Source of the DNA: Promethearchaeota archaeon
GTDB taxonomy: Archaea > Asgardarchaeota > Lokiarchaeia > Sigyniarchaeales > SOKP01
Direction: 5' to 3'
Length of the DNA stretch: 43,430 nucleotides
Assembly (NCBI GenBank): GCA_019894885.1
Contig: JAGXNP010000006.1
Location: 1 to 43,430 of the forward strand
The notes under the pieces are model-generated. The model searched no databases, was not told the origin of the DNA, and saw only the letters and a list, made by a program, of their open reading frames with translations. A program made the translations under genes and the position numbers. Positions 3,181 through 17,894 of this stretch are shown here, one piece after another. Within the stretch, counting starts at the first letter, position 1; every line of letters starts with the position of its first letter.

Positions 3181-4587
3181 TTACTGTTTTTCTATTGCTG
3201 TGATAATTTTTTCAAGTTTTTCTATCATATTTTTTGAGTTTTTCCCGAATAATCTGATAATTGGTTCTTTACCCATTGCCCCCTTATCCCATATTATATC
3301 AGGTATTTTTCCGGATCGCTCTACGCTTTCTTTAATTAACCATTGCATGGTAGAAAATTCTTTTTTTTTGATTTCGAGGGGTTGATTTTCCCTAATTATT
3401 TCTTGCAAATCTAAATCAGTGTTGTCTTGAATTGCTTTTATCCAATCTGGGTTGTACTTCAGATTCGTGACAAAATTAATCGATTTATCGTATTCTTTAG
3501 CAGAGAGAATCAAACGTGCAGTATGATCTGATACTCCGAATTTGATTTCTCCAGACGCTTGAGGATATCCATTGATTAGAGTTATTCTACCTTCTATGGC
3601 AGCAATATCTTCTTGAGTTGTTGCTGATTGCAGTGATCCAGAAATGTTCATTCTGACTTCCGGAATTAAGATGCTGAATTTCTTCGATTTCGAAATATAA
3701 TTGTAAACCTCTTTAATTTGGTTTATTACCTCAATATTTTGCTCGGAAAGGGTTAAGTCTAATATCATTCCTTCATTAGGTAATTCGATGAATTTTTGAA
3801 ATCGAGAATCAAAGAAAGCTTCTGCTTTTTCGATCGCTATGCTAATGGGATATCCTTTAGCAAGAAATCCCGTTATTGCAGAAGAAAAAACGCAACCTGT
3901 ACCGTGAATATTTCCTTTAAGAGAGAGTTTTGGTTTTGTATAAGTCCTGAAATCGAAATTTTCTTCTCTTTCACCGTTCCTTCCGATGCATACTAAATCA
4001 AATACTTTGTCTATAGTTGTTCCGGCACTCTTAATAACTACTCCTTTTTCTTCTTTAGGATGTTTACCTTCTATATGTAATTTTTTTACAAGGATTTTGG
4101 CTGCATTTTTGAGTTCCTCGATATCGGTTTCATGCCTATTAAACAAGTCCGAGTTAGTGTAAAAACTAGCTTCATTAACATTTGGAGTAAGTATTTTAAG
4201 GTGAGGAAACAAATCTCTTTCTATTTCCAATTCCAGTCCTTCGCTCGAAATCCTAGCACCTGCGCTAGAAACCGAAACTGGATCTAATACGGCGATTAAT
4301 TCGTATTTTTTCACATTTTCAACAATGATATCTAAAGCTTTTACATCGGGGATCATTCCTATTTTGACATATTTAACTGGGTAACTTCCTAAAATTGAGT
4401 CCAACTGGTTTCCTAGATCGTCAGAGAGAGATTTGTATCCTACAAATTCGGTCGCATTTTGATAAGTAATAGCTGTAATTGCTGAGAACGGATGAACTCC
4501 GCACCTATCAAATGTCCTAATATCTGCTTGAATTCCCGCACTGGAGGTAGGATCTGAACCCGCTATTGTTAAACAAAAAGGTTTCAT
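3181..4587 (-). CDS. thiDN: ThiD-ThiN fusion: HMP/HMP-P kinase and archaeal thiamine-phosphate synthase
   Basis: This 468-residue bifunctional protein phosphorylates hydroxymethylpyrimidine (phosphate) and then couples the product to the thiazole phosphate. The N-terminal ThiD part (about 1-265) has the ribokinase-fold entry TIAGSDPTSSAGIQAD, the AVLDPVSVSSAG strand and the anion-hole motif GNIHGTGCVFSSA. The C-terminal ThiN part (about 285-468) shows LIPEVRMNISGS, IAAIEGRITLINGYP and FGVSDHTARL, the archaeal replacement for bacterial ThiE. Fusion of these domains is standard in archaea. It lies tail to tail with thiC, so the pathway is clustered but not a single transcript. Confidence 0.95.
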   Translation of the reverse strand: MKPFCLTIAGSDPTSSAGIQADIRTFDRCGVHPFSAITAITYQNATEFVGYKSLSDDLGNQLDSILGSYPVKYVKIGMIPDVKALDIIVENVKKYELIAVLDPVSVSSAGARISSEGLELEIERDLFPHLKILTPNVNEASFYTNSDLFNRHETDIEELKNAAKILVKKLHIEGKHPKEEKGVVIKSAGTTIDKVFDLVCIGRNGEREENFDFRTYTKPKLSLKGNIHGTGCVFSSAITGFLAKGYPISIAIEKAEAFFDSRFQKFIELPNEGMILDLTLSEQNIEVINQIKEVYNYISKSKKFSILIPEVRMNISGSLQSATTQEDIAAIEGRITLINGYPQASGEIKFGVSDHTARLILSAKEYDKSINFVTNLKYNPDWIKAIQDNTDLDLQEIIRENQPLEIKKKEFSTMQWLIKESVERSGKIPDIIWDKGAMGKEPIIRLFGKNSKNMIEKLEKIITAIEKQ

Positions 4588-4613: not shown

Positions 4614-5189
4614 CTAATTAATTCTTTCATAAGCCCATTTGGCTTTATCGTCCAAACCTAGAGCTTCGTATGCCTTTCCAAGATATAAAAATCCGTCAGG
4701 ATAATTATATTTCTCTTTTACTAATTTAAATAGGTGATTAATGGCAAGATCAAAGCGTCCTCGCATGTAGTTTATCTTACCTTTTAGGAATAGAATATCT
4801 TGCTCTTTTTTATTTGAAAGGTTCGAATCTTCGTGCAATTCTAAACGCGATAAAGCATAATCATACTCTTGTTCGTTAATTAGGATATTGATAGATTCAA
4901 TAAATTTCAGAAAAGTCATTTTCGAGGCAATTACTTCCATTTTTTTTAACTCTTCTTTTTTGAGTTCGCTATCTAATGTTGCTAGTTTCTCATCTTCTCG
5001 AAGTTTTATAAAATCTTTGAATTCGTCAAGCACTTCATTTGGATACGGTTCTCTACATAACGGACAATTAGATGAATGAAGTAACCACTCCTTCAAACAA
5101 TCAGTGTGAGCCAGATGCCCATTAGGACAATTGTGAGAAGAATCTACGCCTTCAATAATGCCCAAATGACAAATTATACAAGTAGCCAT
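4614..5189 (-). CDS. RING-H2 finger protein with TPR-like C-terminus
   Basis: The first 45 of 191 residues hold eight metal ligands in RING-H2 spacing: C4-x2-C7-x13-C21-x3-H25-x2-H28-x2-C31-x10-C42-x2-C45, with the hydrophobic LKEWL between the second His/Cys pair and CPLC. RING-H2 fingers usually bind a ubiquitin-loaded E2 and act as E3 ligases. Residues about 50-105 are charged and helical, probably coiled coil. Residues about 110-190 hold TPR-like repeats, clearest in GRFDLAINHLFKLV and DGFLYLGKAYEALGL. It lies 26 bp beyond the start of thiDN on the same strand and is divergent from the first roadblock-GTPase gene, with 103 bp between the starts. No E1, E2 or ubiquitin gene is in the window, so E3 activity is inferred from the ligand pattern only. 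Confidence 0.8.
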   Translation of the reverse strand: MATCIICHLGIIEGVDSSHNCPNGHLAHTDCLKEWLLHSSNCPLCREPYPNEVLDEFKDFIKLREDEKLATLDSELKKEELKKMEVIASKMTFLKFIESINILINEQEYDYALSRLELHEDSNLSNKKEQDILFLKGKINYMRGRFDLAINHLFKLVKEKYNYPDGFLYLGKAYEALGLDDKAKWAYERIN

Positions 5190-5292
5190 GTCAATTAGAA
5201 AACTATTTAATAAATTATAAAATTATTACTTTTAAGTATATGGTGTTTTTAATATTTCACTCTAATATATTCGTATTACCCTTGAATCGATT

Positions 5293-6858
5293 ATGTCTTT
5301 AAACAAAAAACGATTGTTTAATGAGCTTCTAACAAATTTTTTATTAATATATGAAGATGTAGATGCTCTGATTGTATCAGATCATGAAGGGTTTATAATT
5401 GCTGGGCAAAAAAGAGCAAGTATTGATATGGAATTAGTATCTGTTTTAACAACTTTACTCAATCCTATTTTAGAAAGAATTAGAGAAGAATTTGCATTCA
5501 AGAAATTTGGATCAGCTAGTTTTGATACCGAAAACAATCGACTGTTATTTATATCTATTGACGAGAAGATTACTCTCAGTGTCGTATTAGATACACTTTC
5601 CTCCATTGATAAAATCAGCCCTTATGTGTATTTTTTGGCAGAAAAGACAGCTCAAATTATTTATGCTGGAGAAAGCGATGTAATTCAAGTTAAAATACCC
5701 AATTTTGACACAGAATCCGAGAGCTTAAAAGAACCCGAAAGAATAAAAGATCAAATCTATCAAATGCGTTTAGATTCAGGAGGAATTTATAAATTTAAAT
5801 TTATAATCGTGGGCGACAAAGCTGTTGGAAAATCTTCGATTGTAAGAAGATTTGTAGAAAATAAATTTTCTCTTGATTATAGGTCTACTCTTGGCTTAAA
5901 TGTCCTCTCTCATTCATTAAAATTCTATGGAAACGAAGTCTACTTTTCACTTTGGGATGTAGGTGCACAAGAATATTTTAAACGCTTTAGAAAGACTTAT
6001 TATGTAGGCGCACAAGCTGCTTTCATCGTGTTCGATGTTTGTATAAGAGATTCCTTCGCAAATATGAAAGTATGGTACAAAGAAATAGAAGATTTTCTCG
6101 ATAAAAAAAAAATACCAATAGTAATTGTAGGTAATAAAATAGATTTAGCAGATCAGAGAAGTGTCTCATATAAAGAGGGTATTGAGCTAGTTGAAGAACT
6201 CACAAAGGAGAATATTGGAACTCACTTCTCTTACATTGAAACAAGCGCATTAACTGGCGAAAATATAGAAGATGCTTTCAGCTTAATAGCTTACCATTAT
6301 ATAATGAAGAGCAAAGAGAGAGAGGAACAAAAGTTAAAAGAGAGCTTAATGGATCAAATCAATTCGTTATTAACTAAAAGAGGAAAATTAACCATCTCTT
6401 TTATTACTGAAAGCCCATTCTGGAGCCCAGGATTGCAGATCCTAAATGATGTGAATATATTATGCGAGTGTGAAAAATTAATAGAAGATAAAGATAAAAG
6501 ATTGTACGAATACTCCAACGGGCTAATTATTAATAATTTTTTATTCGATAAAATAGATATTAAAGATTCTGATGGTGTATTTGTTATATTTGACGCAAGA
6601 AAAAAAAAGCATATCGAGCAAAAATGGAAAGATGTGGTTATGAACATTATAAGCAATTTAAAAGAAAATAAAGTTGCACTAATTGGCGTGAGAGTATCAG
6701 ATGAAACCGATTGGTCTAATATAATGGAAGAATTTAATGTCAATCAATATTTAGAAAAGAAAATGGTATCTCTTTTGTTTTTTAAGATTGGTTTCGAGTA
6801 TAGATTGGAAATTTACGATCAACTCGAAGTAATGTTTAACACCATCATAAACCTCTAA
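5293..6858 (+). CDS. roadblock-Ras-like GTPase-degenerate GTPase fusion protein (paralog 1)
   Basis: This 521-residue protein has three parts. Residues about 1-125 look like a roadblock/LC7 (MglB-type) domain, with DALIVSDHEGFIIAGQKR, a long helix and the FKKFGSASFDTE...RLLFISID strands. Residues about 168-345 are a Rab/Ras-like GTPase: G1 GDKAVGKSS (174-182), G2 STLG, G3 WDVGAQE, G4 GNKIDL, G5 ETSAL. The catalytic Gln position is kept (AQE). Residues about 355-521 lack a P-loop but follow the second half of a GTPase fold: a strand DGVFVIFDAR, a helix, a strand KVALIGVRVSD, a strand MVSLLFFKIG and a final helix. I read that part as a pseudo-GTPase domain. Roadblock domains bind or activate small GTPases, so the fusion probably self-associates. 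It has no lipidation motif at its C-terminus. Confidence 0.85.
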   Translation: MSLNKKRLFNELLTNFLLIYEDVDALIVSDHEGFIIAGQKRASIDMELVSVLTTLLNPILERIREEFAFKKFGSASFDTENNRLLFISIDEKITLSVVLDTLSSIDKISPYVYFLAEKTAQIIYAGESDVIQVKIPNFDTESESLKEPERIKDQIYQMRLDSGGIYKFKFIIVGDKAVGKSSIVRRFVENKFSLDYRSTLGLNVLSHSLKFYGNEVYFSLWDVGAQEYFKRFRKTYYVGAQAAFIVFDVCIRDSFANMKVWYKEIEDFLDKKKIPIVIVGNKIDLADQRSVSYKEGIELVEELTKENIGTHFSYIETSALTGENIEDAFSLIAYHYIMKSKEREEQKLKESLMDQINSLLTKRGKLTISFITESPFWSPGLQILNDVNILCECEKLIEDKDKRLYEYSNGLIINNFLFDKIDIKDSDGVFVIFDARKKKHIEQKWKDVVMNIISNLKENKVALIGVRVSDETDWSNIMEEFNVNQYLEKKMVSLLFFKIGFEYRLEIYDQLEVMFNTIINL

Positions 6859-6905
6859 AATTTTCTACATTGAAATAGCTACTTTTAAAAATAAGTTATA
6901 TTATC
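6805..6905 (+). repeat. Left copy of direct repeat flanking the GTPase-receptor block
   Basis: The last 18 codons of the first roadblock-GTPase gene and about 45 bp after it recur at 9921-10045. Over the 54 coding bases six differ, five of them synonymous. The following 27 bp (6869-6895) are identical to 10010-10036. The right copy has about 24 extra bases between the two matching parts. Confidence 0.85.
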
Positions 6906-7030
6906 ACTTATTCTAAGAAATCAGCATGTTTTCTTTAAAATTGACAAATATTTAAATAATTCTTATTTATTATTTTATCACCCATTTGTATTTAAAATAA
7001 CATTGGGTAAAGGTGAGGTCTTTGGGAGAA

Positions 7031-7555
7031 ATGGCTTATAAAATATGTATATTTGGAGAAAGTGGAGTAGGAAAAACTACTTTAGCACATCACTATTTAA
7101 AAGGTTATTTTGAAGAGGACATAAAACTTACAATGGGTGCTGAAGTTTTTGTAAAATATATTAATATAGAAAATATAAGAGTAGTTCTGCAAATTTGGGA
7201 TTTTGGGGGTGGAGATGATTTTAAATTCCTATTACCTTTGTACACTAAGGGATCATCTGGTGGGATTTTCATGTTTGATCTGAGTAATAAAGCCTCATTA
7301 AACCATATAAATGGCTGGATTGAGATTTTTAAAAAGGGTTTAGTATCCAGTGAAAAAGAAATTCCAATATTAATGGTTGGGGGAAAATTAGATCTGCAAG
7401 ATCAAATTGTTATAACTGAAAGTGAAATACTGGGCATCGCAAAAGATCATAATCTATATAAACATATCAAATGTTCATCTAAGACAGGAGTAAATGTTGA
7501 AATTATTTTTGAAACATTAGTAAGAGATATTTTGAGATTTCAGAATTTAATCTAA
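7031..7555 (+). CDS. Ras/Rab-like small GTPase with altered G3 and G4 motifs
   Basis: This is a free-standing small GTPase of 174 residues counted from ATG 7031; a GTG at 7013 would add six residues (MRSLGE). I prefer the ATG because MAYKICIFGESGVGKTT places the first strand right at the N-terminus, as in relatives, and GGTGAGG lies upstream. G1 is GESGVGKTT. G3 is WDFGGGDDF, so the usual catalytic Gln after DxxG is not present. G4 is GGKLDL, with Gly where NKxD has Asn. G5 is CSSKTG. The rest of the fold is complete. The changes suggest slow hydrolysis or dependence on a partner. There is no C-terminal Cys for prenylation. It opens the block that also holds two seven-helix membrane proteins. 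Confidence 0.88.
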   Translation: MAYKICIFGESGVGKTTLAHHYLKGYFEEDIKLTMGAEVFVKYINIENIRVVLQIWDFGGGDDFKFLLPLYTKGSSGGIFMFDLSNKASLNHINGWIEIFKKGLVSSEKEIPILMVGGKLDLQDQIVITESEILGIAKDHNLYKHIKCSSKTGVNVEIIFETLVRDILRFQNLI

Positions 7556-7594
7556 ATAATTAAATATTTCGCATTAATATTAAACTAGAATTTG

Positions 7595-7623
7595 ATAGTT
7601 TTTTTTACACTCATAAAAACTAT
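7595..7623 (+). terminator. Possible hairpin between GTPase and receptor 1
   Basis: ATAGTTTTT (7595-7603) and AAAAACTAT (7615-7623) form a perfect 9-bp inverted repeat with an 11-base loop, 40 bp after the GTPase stop and 28 bp before the next start. It contains a run of eight T. It could end part of the GTPase transcript or be a chance AT-rich fold. Confidence 0.3.
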
Positions 7624-7650
7624 TTGAGCTTTTATTCTATGAGATAACAA

Positions 7651-8784
7651 ATGTTTGTTCAGATCGAATATGGTAAAGAACTACAATTTCTAGCTTATTT
7701 AGTTCCGGTAATAATGGGTATTCAATTATCTATTTATTTTTATACTCATTATAAGAAACTTAAAGATGAGGATCTTCCCCTCAATATTATTTTATTAGCA
7801 TTTGGCTCTTTCATTTTATTCATTGTTATTGGACCCTTATTTATTCAAATTGCGAGAAATTTTATTGTAAATGAGTCCGTTTATGAGATAGTATATAGAA
7901 TTGGCTGGGCTTTAACTTTTTTTTCTACGATAGTTTTTTCAAGATTCATTATCCTTAAGGAATTTTCTTTAATTATTAATTTAAAAGTAGCAAAAACTTT
8001 ATTGATTCTAAATTGTATACCAGTTTTTTGCGTTTTTATTTTACCCTCATTACAGTCTCCAATCTTTATTGGAAGTATTTTTTTTGTCGTATTGAATGGG
8101 TTATATATAATTAGATTTCAAATAATATTAATTCAAAAATCAATAGGAAGGGTAAGAGCAAAAATTAGATTTTTTCTTTTTGGAGCTTTAATTAGTCTCG
8201 TTGCATTAGTTTTTGCTACAATAGTGGGATTACGCGTTTTACCTCCGATTATTAATGAGATTATGTATTTTATAGGAGTACTGGATCTATTTATAGGTTT
8301 CTTAATAATATATTTTTCTGTTTACAATTTTCCACCTCTTTATGAATTTGAGTGGCGTGATAATCTTATTAAACTATTTATTTTTAACCCCAACAATTTT
8401 AAGACCTTATATCATTTGGATTTAGTTCAAAATTCTCATTCAAATAATTATTCAGAAAATATTGATCGGATTTTTTCAAAAGGAATATCTGGAATTGAAA
8501 AAATAATAGCTTTAATTACTAATACAAAGACAGAGAGAATAAATAAAATACAGCAAGAAGATTTTCTAATAATGTTTGAGTATGGAAATACTCCTTTTTC
8601 ATTAATCTATGCTTTAATTGTTAAAAAGGATTTAAATAGTTCAAAACATTTATTAAAAATCGTTAGAATACAATTTGAGTCATTTTTCAAGGAAATAATA
8701 TTAAATTTAGATAATATAGAGGAAGATCAAGAAAGTATATTTACTAGCTTTAATGATATGATGGAAGAAATATTACAGGGATGA
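7651..8784 (+). CDS. Seven-helix membrane protein with cytosolic longin/roadblock-like tail (receptor 1)
   Basis: I do not recognise a named family. The 377-residue protein has seven hydrophobic segments at about 11-32, 42-68, 77-102, 113-134, 136-161, 169-194 and 200-225. Positive charges cluster in the first, third and fifth loops (HYKKLKDED; LKEFSL...LKVAK; QKSIGRVRAKIR), which predicts N-terminus outside and C-terminus inside. The tail begins with YEFEWRDNLIKLFIFNP and, as in the next protein, looks like a strand-strand-helix-strand domain of longin/roadblock type: LFIFNPNNFKTLYHLDL, a helix around IFSKGISGIEKIIALI, then FLIMFEYGNTPFSLIYALIV. The seven-helix part resembles in layout the 7TM sensor regions of bacterial receptors. 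The position between GTPase genes suggests a membrane input to the GTPases. That role is inference. Confidence 0.65.
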   Translation: MFVQIEYGKELQFLAYLVPVIMGIQLSIYFYTHYKKLKDEDLPLNIILLAFGSFILFIVIGPLFIQIARNFIVNESVYEIVYRIGWALTFFSTIVFSRFIILKEFSLIINLKVAKTLLILNCIPVFCVFILPSLQSPIFIGSIFFVVLNGLYIIRFQIILIQKSIGRVRAKIRFFLFGALISLVALVFATIVGLRVLPPIINEIMYFIGVLDLFIGFLIIYFSVYNFPPLYEFEWRDNLIKLFIFNPNNFKTLYHLDLVQNSHSNNYSENIDRIFSKGISGIEKIIALITNTKTERINKIQQEDFLIMFEYGNTPFSLIYALIVKKDLNSSKHLLKIVRIQFESFFKEIILNLDNIEEDQESIFTSFNDMMEEILQG

Positions 8785-8833
8785 TAAAATTATTTTTCCT
8801 ATAACCGATCCACTAAGATTTGTAACTTTAATA

Positions 8834-9898
8834 TTGGAATGGATCTTCATCGTTTTGTGTTTTGAATTAGGATTATATTTTCAAGTAAAATATAAAAAGC
8901 AACCAGTGCAGATTAAAAATTCACAGGATATTGGATTTTCCACGCTATTTTATGGAATTTCACTTATGAGATTCTTCCTATTAATAGGTGATTATTATGC
9001 TATTGAAACGATAACTTCCCCTTTTTTAATTTGGTCAAGTGGGAGTTTTAGATTTCTATTTTTAACTTTTGGATATTTATCAATAAATATTGGATTCTTA
9101 TTGTTTACTTTTTATATGGAAAAATATAAAAAATTCTTATTAAAAAAATATTTTTTCACCCTTTGCTTTTTAATACATATTTTTATTTTCATTTCTATGG
9201 TTTTAATTGATCTTGCTAGTATTCCTTATCTTTCAGTTTTACTATTACCGCTTTTCATCATATTTCTACTTATCTATGCAAAAATTTTTGATAAACAAGT
9301 TAAAAAACACAAGATATTTTCTAACGATGGTTTGAAAATGGGATTCTCAATTCTACTTATGCTATCTGGTCATATGCTTACAATAGATTTAGTTTGTTAT
9401 TATTTTGGATTCATAACTAGATTATTCGGAATCAGTATGCAGCTTATCGCGATTGGCTTGACTTTTAAATTGTTCAGAAGTTTTGTTCCCTTTTTTGAAT
9501 TTAATTGGCAAGATAAAATCGAAAATATATATATTTTGAATAGAGATGGGATTAATCTATATAGCAAATCTTTTTTAGAAGAAAGAAAAACTATCGATGA
9601 CCATTTCATATCTGGAGCATTATTTTCAATAAATATTATGCTTAATGAATTAATGAATACCAAAGAAAATAAAATTTCGATCATTAAGAAAAAGAATAAA
9701 ACAGTAACTATTTTTACAAGTGTTTATATTATTGGTGTATTAGTTAGCACAGAGGAACTAGAATTTTTTAAACATAACCTTAAGAGATTAGTTTTAAAAA
9801 TTGAAGTGCTCTATAGAAACCTACTAATCAATTGGAATGGAGATAGAACCCAATTTTATCCAGTAAAAAATATTGTGTCTGATATCTTTTCAATGTGA
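8834..9898 (+). CDS. Seven-helix membrane protein with cytosolic longin-like tail (receptor 2)
   Basis: This 354-residue paralog of the preceding protein starts with TTG at 8834; the frame is open back to a TGA at 8759-8761 but offers no ATG or GTG. Seven hydrophobic segments can be drawn at roughly 2-20, 32-55, 63-92, 105-128, 131-152, 165-195 and 197-220. The junction FFEFNWQDKIENIYILN matches the YEFEWRDNLIKLFIFN junction of receptor 1. The tail (about 225-354) is a clearer longin-like domain: IYILNRDGINLYSKSF, then DDHFISGALFSINIMLNEL, then VTIFTSVYIIGVLVS and a long helix. The same pattern ends the TPR protein at 28952-30670. The start follows the receptor 1 stop by 49 bp, so the two are probably co-transcribed. 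Confidence 0.63.
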   Translation: MEWIFIVLCFELGLYFQVKYKKQPVQIKNSQDIGFSTLFYGISLMRFFLLIGDYYAIETITSPFLIWSSGSFRFLFLTFGYLSINIGFLLFTFYMEKYKKFLLKKYFFTLCFLIHIFIFISMVLIDLASIPYLSVLLLPLFIIFLLIYAKIFDKQVKKHKIFSNDGLKMGFSILLMLSGHMLTIDLVCYYFGFITRLFGISMQLIAIGLTFKLFRSFVPFFEFNWQDKIENIYILNRDGINLYSKSFLEERKTIDDHFISGALFSINIMLNELMNTKENKISIIKKKNKTVTIFTSVYIIGVLVSTEELEFFKHNLKRLVLKIEVLYRNLLINWNGDRTQFYPVKNIVSDIFSM

Positions 9899-9920
9899 AT
9901 AGATTCTTTCTAATTCTTCC

Positions 9921-10045
9921 TTGGAAATCTACGACCAACTTGAAGTAATGTTTAATATCATCATAAATCTCTAAAATTTTCACTAATACTGCTAACTAAA
10001 ATTTTATAAATTGAAATAGCTACTTTTAAAAATAAGGTACATTAT
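9921..10045 (+). repeat. Right copy of direct repeat: relic of a roadblock-GTPase gene 3' end
   Basis: In-frame codons from TTG 9921 to TAA 9972-9974 read LEIYDQLEVMFNIIINL and stop, matching the C-terminus of the first roadblock-GTPase protein with one amino-acid change (Thr to Ile). Before 9921 the similarity ends abruptly, 22 bases after the receptor 2 stop. After the stop the trailer of paralog 1 is also kept, up to the region that precedes paralog 2. This is a gene-end remnant and not a coding gene. Confidence 0.8.
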
Positions 10046-10101
10046 ATTTATGATAAGATGAAGTTTTTCTTTGTCCTATTCAAAAAAGGTGGTAAATTCA
10101 A

Positions 10102-11655
10102 TTGTTAGTAAACAGGCAAAAGCTTTTTAAAGAGATACTTAATAATTTCTTGGAACGCTTTTTCGAAATAGAAGCTATAATTATCTCAGATCTTGAAGGT
10201 TTCGTGATCGCTGGAGAAAAAAGGAAGGATATCGATAGTAACATCGAGATCATATCTGTTCTAACAACGTTTATTAACCCAGTTTTAGAAAGGATAAGAA
10301 ATGAATTCAGTTTCAAGAAATTTGGAACTGCTTCGTTCGATACGGATGAACATCGCTTATTGTTTATTACAATTGACGAAGAAAGAATTTTAAGCTTAAT
10401 TTTTAATAGCATGGCATCAGTTGAAAAAGTGGCACCCTATACCTATTTTTTAGCTGAGAAAGCTGCCCAAATACTTAACATGCAAGGGGATGAATTAATC
10501 CAGCTAGATATCCCCGATTTTGATTCTGAAGCAGATAGGCATGAAAAGCTTAAAGAATCTATATGTCAATCAGAATTGGATGAGTGTGCTAATTATGCCT
10601 TTAAATTTGTTATCGTAGGATCACACGAGGTAGGAAAAACTTCTTTAATCCGACAATTCGTAGAGAGAAAGTTTTCGCACGATTACCGAGCAACTATAGG
10701 ATTAAATATTTTTGCTCATAATTTTGACTTTCAGGGAAACGAAATTCACGTCCAGCTCTGGGATATAGGCGCGCAGCAATATTTTAAAAGATTTCGCAAG
10801 ATATACTACAACGGTGCAGAAGCAGCTTTTATTGTTTTTGATATTACTAACAGAGAATCATTTGAGAAAATCAAAGAGTGGCATGGAGAGATAAATCAGC
10901 TTATTGATGAAAAAAATATCCCTATAGTTATCGTGGGAAATAAGGTCGATTTATCTGAGCAAAGAGTAATATCCACAGCTGAAGGAGAAGATTTAGCCAA
11001 ATTACTATCAGAAACCTATATAGAAACCAGTGCTCTTTCCGGTGAAAATGTGATCGACGCTTTTGAATTAATTGCTTACCACTACATCATTAAAACCAAG
11101 AAAAAAGAAAAAGACGTAATTCGAGAAGATTTAGTGGAAGCTATTCTCTCAACCTTAAAAGAACTCGTTATCTTAGAATTAACATTCATATCTGAAAACA
11201 TGAGTTGGGATCCAGGCTTCCAAACGATAATTAACCTAGAGAACCTCGGTGATTATTCAAAACTCAAGGATAGCAATAAAGAAAAATTATATCCTTATAA
11301 GAACGGTCTAATTTTAAGTAGTTTTGCCTACGACGATTTTAATCTATCTAATTCGGACGGAGTATTCTGCATGTTCGATGCTCGCGATAGGGAAAACATT
11401 GATCCTAAATGGAAGGATATACTTATTGATATTGTTAGAAAAGTGAGAAAGAAACGCGCTGTAATTGTAGGTATTCGAGTATCTGACGACAAAAACTGGT
11501 CTCGGTTAATGGAAGAATTTGTAATCGATAAGGATTTAGAAGAGAAGGTTGTGTCGGTTCTATTCCTAAAAATTGGTCCAGACTATAGAGAAAAGATATA
11601 CGAACATTTGAAGTTAATGCTAGATGTTATAGTTACCACGAGAAAATTAAAATAA
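10102..11655 (+). CDS. roadblock-Ras-like GTPase-degenerate GTPase fusion protein (paralog 2)
   Basis: The 517-residue protein matches the protein at 5293-6858 along its whole length. The start is TTG 10102, supported by AAAGGTGG ending nine bases before it and by alignment of LVNRQKLFKEILNNFL with the N-terminus of paralog 1. The roadblock part covers about 1-125. The GTPase part has G1 GSHEVGKTS (173-181), G2 ATIG, G3 WDIGAQQ, G4 GNKVDL and G5 ETSAL. The C-terminal region again lacks a P-loop but keeps DGVFCMFDARD, RAVIVGIRVSD and VVSVLFLKIG as GTPase-like strands. G1 has His-Glu where paralog 1 has Lys-Ala. The conserved architecture in two copies argues that all three domains are functional. 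It converges on the dehydrogenase gene with only a few bases between the stops. Confidence 0.85.
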   Translation: MLVNRQKLFKEILNNFLERFFEIEAIIISDLEGFVIAGEKRKDIDSNIEIISVLTTFINPVLERIRNEFSFKKFGTASFDTDEHRLLFITIDEERILSLIFNSMASVEKVAPYTYFLAEKAAQILNMQGDELIQLDIPDFDSEADRHEKLKESICQSELDECANYAFKFVIVGSHEVGKTSLIRQFVERKFSHDYRATIGLNIFAHNFDFQGNEIHVQLWDIGAQQYFKRFRKIYYNGAEAAFIVFDITNRESFEKIKEWHGEINQLIDEKNIPIVIVGNKVDLSEQRVISTAEGEDLAKLLSETYIETSALSGENVIDAFELIAYHYIIKTKKKEKDVIREDLVEAILSTLKELVILELTFISENMSWDPGFQTIINLENLGDYSKLKDSNKEKLYPYKNGLILSSFAYDDFNLSNSDGVFCMFDARDRENIDPKWKDILIDIVRKVRKKRAVIVGIRVSDDKNWSRLMEEFVIDKDLEEKVVSVLFLKIGPDYREKIYEHLKLMLDVIVTTRKLK

Positions 11656-15942: not shown

Positions 15943-16533
15943 ATGACTGAAGTTAAAGAAAATAAGGAACACGAAATCGAGGTTTTTCCTTTCATTGAGG
16001 GAGAATCCATTGATTTAGTTGCTACAAATTCTAAATGGGTACAATTAATGTGCAAATGGCAAAATGATCCAAATGTTCGTCGTTACGCTCGAAATATGTG
16101 GCCCATTACTATAGAAGAAGTAAAAAAATGGTTCGAGCCTACTCCAGACAAGCATACGAGAGAATTCGTTGTTTTTAATATTTACCATAAACGCGACAAA
16201 CGCCCAATCGGTACAGTTGGATTTGGACGTATAAATTGGGTTAACAGGAATGCAAATATTTTCGCTGCTATTGGAGAGCCGGAATATTGGGGAAAGGGTA
16301 TCGCTATTGAGGCAAATAAATTATTGATTAAATATGGATTTACTGAATTAAACTTTCATAAAATATATGCAGGAGTATTTACGCCGAATAAAAGATCACT
16401 TCGAGCAGCAGAGAAATTGGGTTTTGAACAGGAAGCAATTTTAAAAGAAGAGATGTTTGTTGACGGAGTGTATCATGATCTTCATAAATTCGCACTTTTC
16501 AAGAGAGATTGGATTAAATCCAATCAAAATTAA
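15943..16533 (+). CDS. RimJ/RimL-type GNAT acetyltransferase, tandem copy 1
   Basis: This is the first of three adjacent paralogs. The 196-residue protein follows the RimJ/RimL pattern, N-acetylation of a protein N-terminus or of a small amine. It shows the N-terminal LVATNSKWVQLMCKWQNDPNVRR with the conserved W-x-N-D-P, then DKRPIGTVGF, then GEPEYWGKGIAIEANKLL holding the CoA motif WGKGIA, then the PNKRSLRAAEKLGF helix and a final strand FKRDWI. All three start with a short acidic leader ending IEVFPFIEG. Copies 1 and 2 share a stretch of 51 identical bases (16285-16335 against 16965-17015), so their duplication or conversion is recent. The substrate is unknown. Confidence 0.88.
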   Translation: MTEVKENKEHEIEVFPFIEGESIDLVATNSKWVQLMCKWQNDPNVRRYARNMWPITIEEVKKWFEPTPDKHTREFVVFNIYHKRDKRPIGTVGFGRINWVNRNANIFAAIGEPEYWGKGIAIEANKLLIKYGFTELNFHKIYAGVFTPNKRSLRAAEKLGFEQEAILKEEMFVDGVYHDLHKFALFKRDWIKSNQN

Positions 16534-16536
16534 TCA

Positions 16537-17303
16537 TAAGACTTTTTTTTGTAAGGTTTGATCTTCAAAATAAGAAAATTTAATCAAATTGAAAGAGATT
16601 AATTGATTTAAAGTTGCAAACTATGCCGGAAGAAAAAGAAAATAGTAAAGAAGAGATTGAAGCCTTCCCATTTATCGAAGGGAAAACTATTGATTTAGTC
16701 GCAGGTAATTCTAAATGGGCAGATTTACTTTGTAAGTGGAGAAATAACCCAAACGTGCGCCATTACGATCGAAATATGTGGCCCCTTACTCTTGAAGATA
16801 TAAAGAAACATTTTGAACCCTCACCAGATAGGCGCACAAGGGATTTTGTCATTTTTACAATATACCATAAGCACGATAAGCGTCCTATTGGGTTAGTTGG
16901 CCTTGAAGATATCAATTGGGTAAGCAGAACTGCCAATATTTTCGCAACGATTGGAGAGCCCGATTATTGGGGAAAGGGTATCGCTATTGAGGCAAATAAA
17001 TTATTGATTAAATATAGTTTTACTGAGTTAAATTTACATAAAATATATGCAGGAGTATATACCCCGAATAAAAGATCACTCCGAGCAGTAGAGAAATTAG
17101 GTTTTGAAAAGGAAGCAATATTAAAAGAGGAGGGTTATGTTGATGGAGTATATCACGATATTCATAAATTCGCACTTTTCAAGAGAGATTGGATTAAATT
17201 AAATCAAAAAGAATCATAAGACTTTTTTTCTGTAAGTTTTTGTCTTCAGAATGAGAAATATTAAACAAATTGGAAGATATTAATTGATTTAAAGCGTTAA
17301 ATA
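16537..17303 (+). repeat. Duplicated spacers of the acetyltransferase tandem array
   Basis: The spacers 16534-16622 and 17220-17303 are homologous: each begins CATAAGAC followed by seven or more T and ends with ATTAATTGATTTAAAG before the next start. The repeat period, ATG to ATG, is 680 and 681 bp. So whole gene-plus-spacer units were duplicated. Confidence 0.8.
16623..17219 (+). CDS. RimJ/RimL-type GNAT acetyltransferase, tandem copy 2
   Basis: I place the start at ATG 16623 and not at TTG 16614 because copy 3 begins with the same MPEEKE and lies 681 bp further on. The protein of 198 residues has the same motifs as copy 1: CKWRNNPNVRH, DKRPIGLVGL, GEPDYWGKGIAIEANKLL, PNKRSLRAVEKLGF. It is nearest to copy 1 from about residue 110 onward. 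Changes are concentrated in the N-terminal half, which shapes the acceptor pocket in this family, so substrate choice may differ. The spacer before it (CATAAGAC, a T run, then ATTAATTGATTTAAAG) is repeated before copy 3. Confidence 0.88.
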   Translation: MPEEKENSKEEIEAFPFIEGKTIDLVAGNSKWADLLCKWRNNPNVRHYDRNMWPLTLEDIKKHFEPSPDRRTRDFVIFTIYHKHDKRPIGLVGLEDINWVSRTANIFATIGEPDYWGKGIAIEANKLLIKYSFTELNLHKIYAGVYTPNKRSLRAVEKLGFEKEAILKEEGYVDGVYHDIHKFALFKRDWIKLNQKES

Positions 17304-17894
17304 ATGCCAGAAGAAAAAGAAAAATGTAAAGAAGAGATTGAAGTCTTCCCATTTATCGAAGGGAAAATTATTGATTTAGTTGCCCAAAACTCAAAATGGG
17401 CTGAACTCATATGTAAATGGAGAAACGATCCAAATGTTCGACACTATTCAAGAAACGCATGGCCAAGGAGTCTGGGTGATGTTAAAAAAAGGTTTGAAAC
17501 TATTCAAGATGAGTTTGGACATACCCGGGATTATGTAGGTTTCATAATTTATCACAAATGTGATAAGCGTCCAATTGGAGAGATAGGATTGAACCGCATT
17601 GATTGGGTAAGTCGTCATGCTAACATTTTCGCAATGATTGGTGAACCAGAATATTTGGGGAAGGGTATAGTCGGTGAAGCAGCTCAATTAGTACTCAAAT
17701 ATGCATTTACAGAATTAAACTTGCACAAGATAAAAGCTGGCGTATTTACACCAAATGAAAGATCTCTTCGTGCAGCTGAAAAACTAGGGTTAAATAAAGA
17801 AGCAGTAGTGAAAGAAGCGATGTACGTTGACGGAAAATACCACGATATTCATAAATGGGGCTTAACAAAAGAGGAATGGCTAAAAAAAAATTAA
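17304..17894 (+). CDS. RimJ/RimL-type GNAT acetyltransferase, tandem copy 3
   Basis: The 196-residue third copy is the most diverged. It keeps CKWRNDPNVRH, DKRPIGEIGL, a CoA motif LGKGIVGEA where copies 1 and 2 have WGKGIAIEA, and PNERSLRAAEKLGL. It has a short insertion near residue 70 (DEFGHTRD) and ends KEEWLKKN in place of FKRDWIK. The shared leader and spacer show that it came from the same duplication series, but earlier. All three are likely independently ended by the T runs in the spacers. Confidence 0.87.
   Translation: MPEEKEKCKEEIEVFPFIEGKIIDLVAQNSKWAELICKWRNDPNVRHYSRNAWPRSLGDVKKRFETIQDEFGHTRDYVGFIIYHKCDKRPIGEIGLNRIDWVSRHANIFAMIGEPEYLGKGIVGEAAQLVLKYAFTELNLHKIKAGVFTPNERSLRAAEKLGLNKEAVVKEAMYVDGKYHDIHKWGLTKEEWLKKN

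Follow-up and report, generated by a model that had tools for sequence, protein, structure and literature searches.

Between positions 4,614 and 11,655 of a 43,430-nt stretch of Lokiarchaeia DNA (contig JAGXNP010000006.1, called the window; coordinates refer to all of it) lie six genes, encoding a RING-H2 protein, two fusions of a roadblock domain with a GTPase (RBG1 and RBG2), a free small GTPase, and two seven-transmembrane proteins with longin-like tails (7TM-A and 7TM-B). All six were located as open reading frames (ORFs) where the original prediction had placed them, with Pfam support for the RING protein and the three GTPase genes. The single signalling locus into which that prediction had joined them is, however, a composite of two modules brought together by insertion, in an arrangement unique to the window genome among those examined. 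One module is a stable island consisting of the RING/TPR gene, RBG1 and RBG2; the other is a mobile cassette with the order GTPase–A–B. 7TM-A and 7TM-B are ancient paralogues kept as a pair, and across eight genera a specific association of this pair with free small GTPases is supported in substance.

Among 77 relatives searched, 7TM-A was found in 43 and 7TM-B, often as the tail only, in 69; the contig scan for 7TM-A used a close alignment of 8 rows, the 38-row alignment being too diverse. At 44 loci, spread over 34 genomes, the two genes are adjacent on one strand, A nearly always preceding B, and the named metagenome-assembled genomes that hold the pair belong to Lokiarchaeota, Helarchaeota and Sigynarchaeota. 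A single branch of the 7TM tree parts A from B in 100% of bootstraps, and the two subtrees are largely mirrored. The window joins genome G005 in this tree, and G013, from the window's genus, pairs with G046 from a different genus; this pattern suggests that the cassette has moved laterally, with differential loss as an alternative. Beyond Lokiarchaeia, B-like genes at the loci inspected are mostly single and without an A partner. No GTPase was found near them at these loci, using a GTPase profile that was built from Lokiarchaeia and is perhaps less sensitive there. One of the 20 regions fetched for this check comes from an organism of the window's own taxonomic order, and in it a GTPase fragment lies six genes off.

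We compared the share of GTPases by position on the same contigs, excluding the window's two roadblock fusions from the count. GTPases make up 13/84 immediate neighbours of the pair, 8/75 second neighbours and 2/175 genes at a distance of five genes or more (immediate versus distant, Fisher p = 1.3e-5, an indicative value since the loci are kin). Ras-family GTPases number 46–96 per genome, so that chance adjacency is a real concern, and it is this concern that the in-contig control addresses. A GTPase occurs within 3 genes in 19 of the 44 pair loci, representing 8 genera, and when all neighbours were clustered the free small GTPase was the sole family recurring across genera, the others being clade-specific or metabolic. 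In the closest cassettes (the window and L231–L236) the order GTPase–A–B on one strand is found in 7/7, with the orthologue of the window GTPase directly upstream of A. On the GTPase tree, the state of standing next to a 7TM pair must have changed at least 4 times, indicating that several GTPase lineages, at least four, were joined to pairs; the closest GTPases not linked to pairs have unrelated, metabolic neighbours. An association of seven-helix proteins with GTPases had thus been anticipated correctly as regards the free GTPase, but the synteny test proposed along with it does not extend it to the roadblock fusions: 7TM and roadblock-GTPase genes lie near each other in none of 43 other pair loci and in none of 20 other fusion loci. 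Up to four of the seven closest cassettes also hold a stand-alone longin or longin-like protein. In L234, an extra tailless seven-helix protein (L234:8580–9296) precedes a stand-alone longin-like protein (9813–10265).

The cassette GTPase has the P-loop GxxxxGK[ST] and DxxG; in the window it lacks NKxD and a Gln after DxxG, reading GKLD and DFGGG. A Loki small-GTPase subfamily (window 7013–7555; L245–L265), with several copies per genome, commonly has GKxD for NKxD and carries Glu or a different residue where the catalytic Gln would be. These two features were considered as a hallmark of the cassette GTPase and rejected, being common in the wider subfamily with unrelated neighbours. Also rejected was the apparent absence of a P-loop from GTPase ORFs of 139–141 aa beside pairs, in which it is encoded in the same frame, ahead of the first ATG. 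No ATG, GTG or TTG stands at the expected start of the pair-linked GTPases of L061, L063, L064, L081, L088 and L103, or of 7TM-B in the window and G005; the in-frame P-loop or FPI motif upstream suggests ATT, ATA or ATC starts, or a small frameshift. For the window's 7TM-B, the frame is open from ~8792 and the conserved FPI motif lies upstream of 8834, with no canonical start codon there, so that the protein likely begins upstream of 8834 from a non-canonical start.

The tails of both 7TM proteins are predicted to be longin domains, as the original prediction had proposed. In an AlphaFold model of 7TM-B (single chain, 50 homologues; pLDDT 86, pTM 0.79), seven long helices are followed by a β-β-α-β-β-β-α tail, which follows the longin order β-β-α-β-β-β-α(-α) and is mostly well predicted except for residues ~250–280. 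Foldseek searches of the PDB with this tail returned COPZ1, MglB, LAMTOR/Ragulator subunits, the longins of VAMP7 and Ykt6, and sigma-adaptins (E 0.004–0.02, probability 1.0). The top PDB sequence match of the B-tail profile is Trs23/TRAPPC4 (E 8.7e-4) and that of the A-tail profile, searched separately, is Bet5/TRAPPC1 (E 0.025), both weak; the two tails are homologous to each other (hhalign 99.6%, E 9e-25). No longin family of Pfam was matched above its curated threshold, with single members weakly matching Sybindin and MON1-type longin models (Sybindin 0.0035, Fuz_longin_1 0.0099), and the window's 7TM-A and 7TM-B matched no Pfam domain. Loops 1, 3 and 5 are rich in Lys and Arg, unlike loops 2, 4 and 6, and from this charge pattern the tail is predicted to be cytoplasmic. 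Model and loop charges together predict seven helices with N outside and C inside, the layout of a G-protein-coupled receptor (GPCR). Among 88 7TM members searched against Pfam, none matched a 7tm GPCR family, and the 7TM part matched no enzyme or transporter family; the 7TMR-DISM_7TM model gave a weak match in 1/38 A members (E 0.007). Longin tails were also seen on TPR proteins, on extracellular-transmembrane proteins with a C-terminal winged helix-turn-helix (wHTH), on an MFS-like protein and on a soluble wHTH protein. Longins on such varied Asgard membrane proteins may represent a general cytoplasmic module.

In the window genome, and in no other examined, the free GTPase, 7TM-A and 7TM-B stand between RBG1 and RBG2. 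On either side of this cassette stands one copy of a direct repeat (BLASTN of left versus right copy, 4e-24; parts 85–92% alike; repeat family D2, 92%). The left copy is the true RBG1 end followed by an intergenic box. The right copy has 17 leftover codons of the RBG1 end, closed by a stop, ahead of the same box, and this box lies between RBG1 and RBG2 in all relatives compared. Since a duplicated RBG1 3′ end flanks the cassette, we regard the cassette as an insertion. In G017 the same junction holds a different insert, and 157 nt of the RBG1 3′ end are repeated there (L183:3327–3483 and 4032–4188); a third insert is present in G013 (L194:1–2490). Three genomes have different inserts at this site, and in two the RBG1 end is duplicated, so that the RBG1 3′ end accepts insertions. 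Between the repeats of the window cassette there is neither an integrase gene nor an identical att core; the lack of an integrase points to homologous recombination with incoming DNA bearing an RBG1-like end.

Table 1. Features of the two modules and their junctions, with further longin-tailed proteins. Positions refer to the window unless a locus is named; CT, C-terminal domain.
Feature	Coordinates	Strand	Module	Evidence and remarks
RING-H2 + TPR protein, 191 aa	4614..5189	-	1 (stable island)	Pfam zf-RING_2, 32.8 bits vs cut-off 27.3, E 8e-8; TPR weak; same place and orientation beside RBG1 in ~18 genomes
RBG1, roadblock – Rab-like GTPase – CT fusion 1	5293..6858 (CT 6350-6858)	+	1	Pfam Ras 4e-43; synteny
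Left direct-repeat copy: RBG1 3′ end + intergenic box TTGAAATAGCTACTTTTAAAAATAAG (box 6870-6904)	6805..6918	+		Now upstream of free GTPase
Free Rab/Ras-like small GTPase	7013..7555	+	2 (cassette)	Pfam Ras 2e-35
7TM-longin protein A (7TM-A)	7651..8784	+	2	Clade A, support 100/99
7TM-longin protein B (7TM-B)	8792..9898	+	2	TTG at 8834, frame open further upstream
Right direct-repeat copy: RBG1 C-terminus remnant (LEIYDQLEVMFNIIINL-stop, 9921-9974) + second box (10011-10045)	9921..10058	+		Upstream of RBG2
RBG2, roadblock – Rab-like GTPase – CT fusion 2	10102..11655 (CT 11130-11655)	+	1	Pfam Ras 5e-48; synteny; AlphaFold model
Other longin-tailed proteins	L270:4820-8185, L268:3064-5379, L271:1997-6997, L251:2847-4436, L273:6780-7469			

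The island itself is conserved as thiC–thiD–RING/TPR–RBG1–RBG2–dehydrogenase in ~18 genomes of the genus, and in nearly all of them RBG2 directly follows RBG1; RBG1 orthologues in relatives are 51–91% identical and stand immediately upstream of RBG2. The fusions are 517–521 aa long, and RBG2 is modelled as an α-β-β-α-β-β-β-α roadblock followed by an intact Rab-like G domain (AlphaFold; pLDDT 74, moderate). Their domains had been named correctly in the original prediction, which missed a third, C-terminal domain of ~170 aa in each and did not see that the start of 7TM-B lies upstream of 8834. In a profile search of the PDB, the third domain matches Rho6 best (E 0.004, residues 77–133 on 79–135), and its alignment to the set's G domains is in register, at a low hhalign probability (20%); Foldseek with the fusion model yielded nothing informative on it, the result being swamped by Rab matches. 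From these alignments, the third domain is tentatively read as a probable second G domain that has degenerated and lacks a P-loop. Genomes that have no close cassette conserve the RBG pair just as well, and RBG1 and RBG2 are a separate GTPase pair, probably heterodimeric. Also at this island are three tandem GNAT acetyltransferase genes (window 15943–17894), whose copy number differs among relatives.

What might the cassette do? Longin pairs such as TRAPPC1/C4 (Bet5/Trs23) and Mon1/Ccz1 are GTPase-binding platforms for Rab GTPases. Given that the top profile matches of the tails are Trs23 and Bet5, we infer that 7TM-A and 7TM-B would join in a heterodimer and present, through their longin domains, a comparable platform at the membrane, probably for nucleotide exchange. 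The seven helices would read a ligand or the state of the membrane and alter the platform, which would then recruit the partner GTPase and most likely exchange its nucleotide. That a 7TM longin heterodimer recruits and most likely activates its GTPase upon a signal, from a cassette inserted here at the RBG1 3′ end, we consider an even bet. More tentative, and in our judgement somewhat short of even, is the specific proposal that these are paired receptors whose tails constitute a heterodimeric exchange platform for a dedicated Rab-like GTPase, as one case of longins serving as the output of Asgard receptors. Several observations weigh against such a function. In 25/44 pair loci there is no GTPase within three genes, so that the linkage is not obligatory; GKxD and the missing catalytic Gln make the nucleotide affinity and cycle of the cassette GTPase uncertain; the matches to TRAPP longins are weak (E 9e-4 and 0.025); and other longins, in SNAREs and adaptors, have roles unrelated to GTPases.

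Part of the same evidence would fit a pair that is a membrane anchor or effector and not an exchange factor, recruiting the GTP-loaded GTPase in the manner of Ragulator, with helices that need not sense anything. Ragulator-type roadblock/longin platforms act as scaffolds, LAMTOR chains are among the Foldseek matches, the missing Gln is consistent with a slow switch, and stand-alone longins have been added to some of the closest cassettes. The nearest sequence profiles, however, are those of TRAPP exchange-factor longins and not of Ragulator subunits, and two paralogues with seven helices each exceed the needs of an anchor; we regard this possibility as rather doubtful. Lower still do we rate a 7TM part that is an enzyme or transporter, locally regulated by its longin, with GTPase adjacency as a by-product of high GTPase content. 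The attachment of longin tails to a range of further proteins (TPR proteins, an MFS-like protein and large extracellular receptors that carry a wHTH), the single B-like genes without a nearby GTPase in other Asgard classes, and the abundance of GTPases are all in its favour. It is made unlikely by the enrichment of GTPases beside pairs relative to distant genes of the same contigs, by the recruitment of several GTPase lineages while GTPases of the same subfamily elsewhere have unrelated metabolic neighbours, and by the failure of the 7TM part to match any enzyme or transporter family.

The version put forward originally, in which the 7TM proteins signal to the adjoining roadblock-GTPase fusions, draws on their adjacency in the window genome. 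Since the inserted cassette now lies behind one copy of the box found upstream of RBG2, it may be co-expressed with the roadblock-GTPase pair. The confinement of this adjacency to one genome and the equal conservation of RBG pairs that have no close cassette nevertheless make such signalling highly improbable.

Asgard genomes encode dozens of small GTPases without known regulators or targets, and for one of them the cassette names the GTPase, a two-protein membrane platform and a candidate interface. If the tails do regulate the GTPase, signal-coupled control of a membrane GTPase by longin heterodimers exists outside eukaryotes, which would bear on the origin of Rab/TRAPP-type control. We found no paper on 7TM-longin proteins in the open-access literature, subscription journals and preprints being outside the scope of the search. 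A 2016 review counted 41 longins and asked whether operons would reveal the targets of Loki GTPases (PMC4917890). Asgard GTPase genes were later reported as generally not in operons with roadblock or longin genes (PMC10933270, Tran et al. 2024), and the cassette is a concrete exception to the conclusion of that study that genome layout helps little.

Among known systems, the longin pair TRAPPC1/TRAPPC4 (Bet5/Trs23) of the TRAPP core, like Mon1–Ccz1, a second Rab exchange factor built on a longin pair, resembles the cassette in bringing together two different longins with a Rab-like GTPase beside them; Bet5 and Trs23 supply the longins of the TRAPP core that binds Ypt1 (PMC10933270). The cassette differs in that its two longins are carried by separate seven-helix membrane parts, one on each, and no Bet3/TRAPPC3 subunit was seen at the locus, Bet3-like genes not having been searched for systematically. 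The window's two fusions are of the kind published for Asgard archaea, where MK-D1 has roadblock- and longin-GTPase fusions (PMC10933270, which also describes an operon with a pair of Rag-like GTPases); they differ in carrying the third, G-like domain, and 7TM-longin proteins are absent from that paper. MglA/MglB likewise couples a platform of the roadblock/longin class to a small, Ras-like GTPase, and Foldseek lists MglB near the top for the 7TM-B tail; MglB, however, is a soluble roadblock homodimer, whereas the tails here have the longin order and sit on 7TM proteins. Bacterial 7TMR-DISM receptors share the plan of seven helices followed by diverse intracellular modules, among which, to our knowledge, longin tails have not been described. 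Eukaryotic GPCRs differ in that the proteins here match no Pfam GPCR family, lie beside a small and not a heterotrimeric G protein, and have a separate longin platform; what the two have in common is a predicted N-out/C-in arrangement of seven helices and a GTPase as partner gene.

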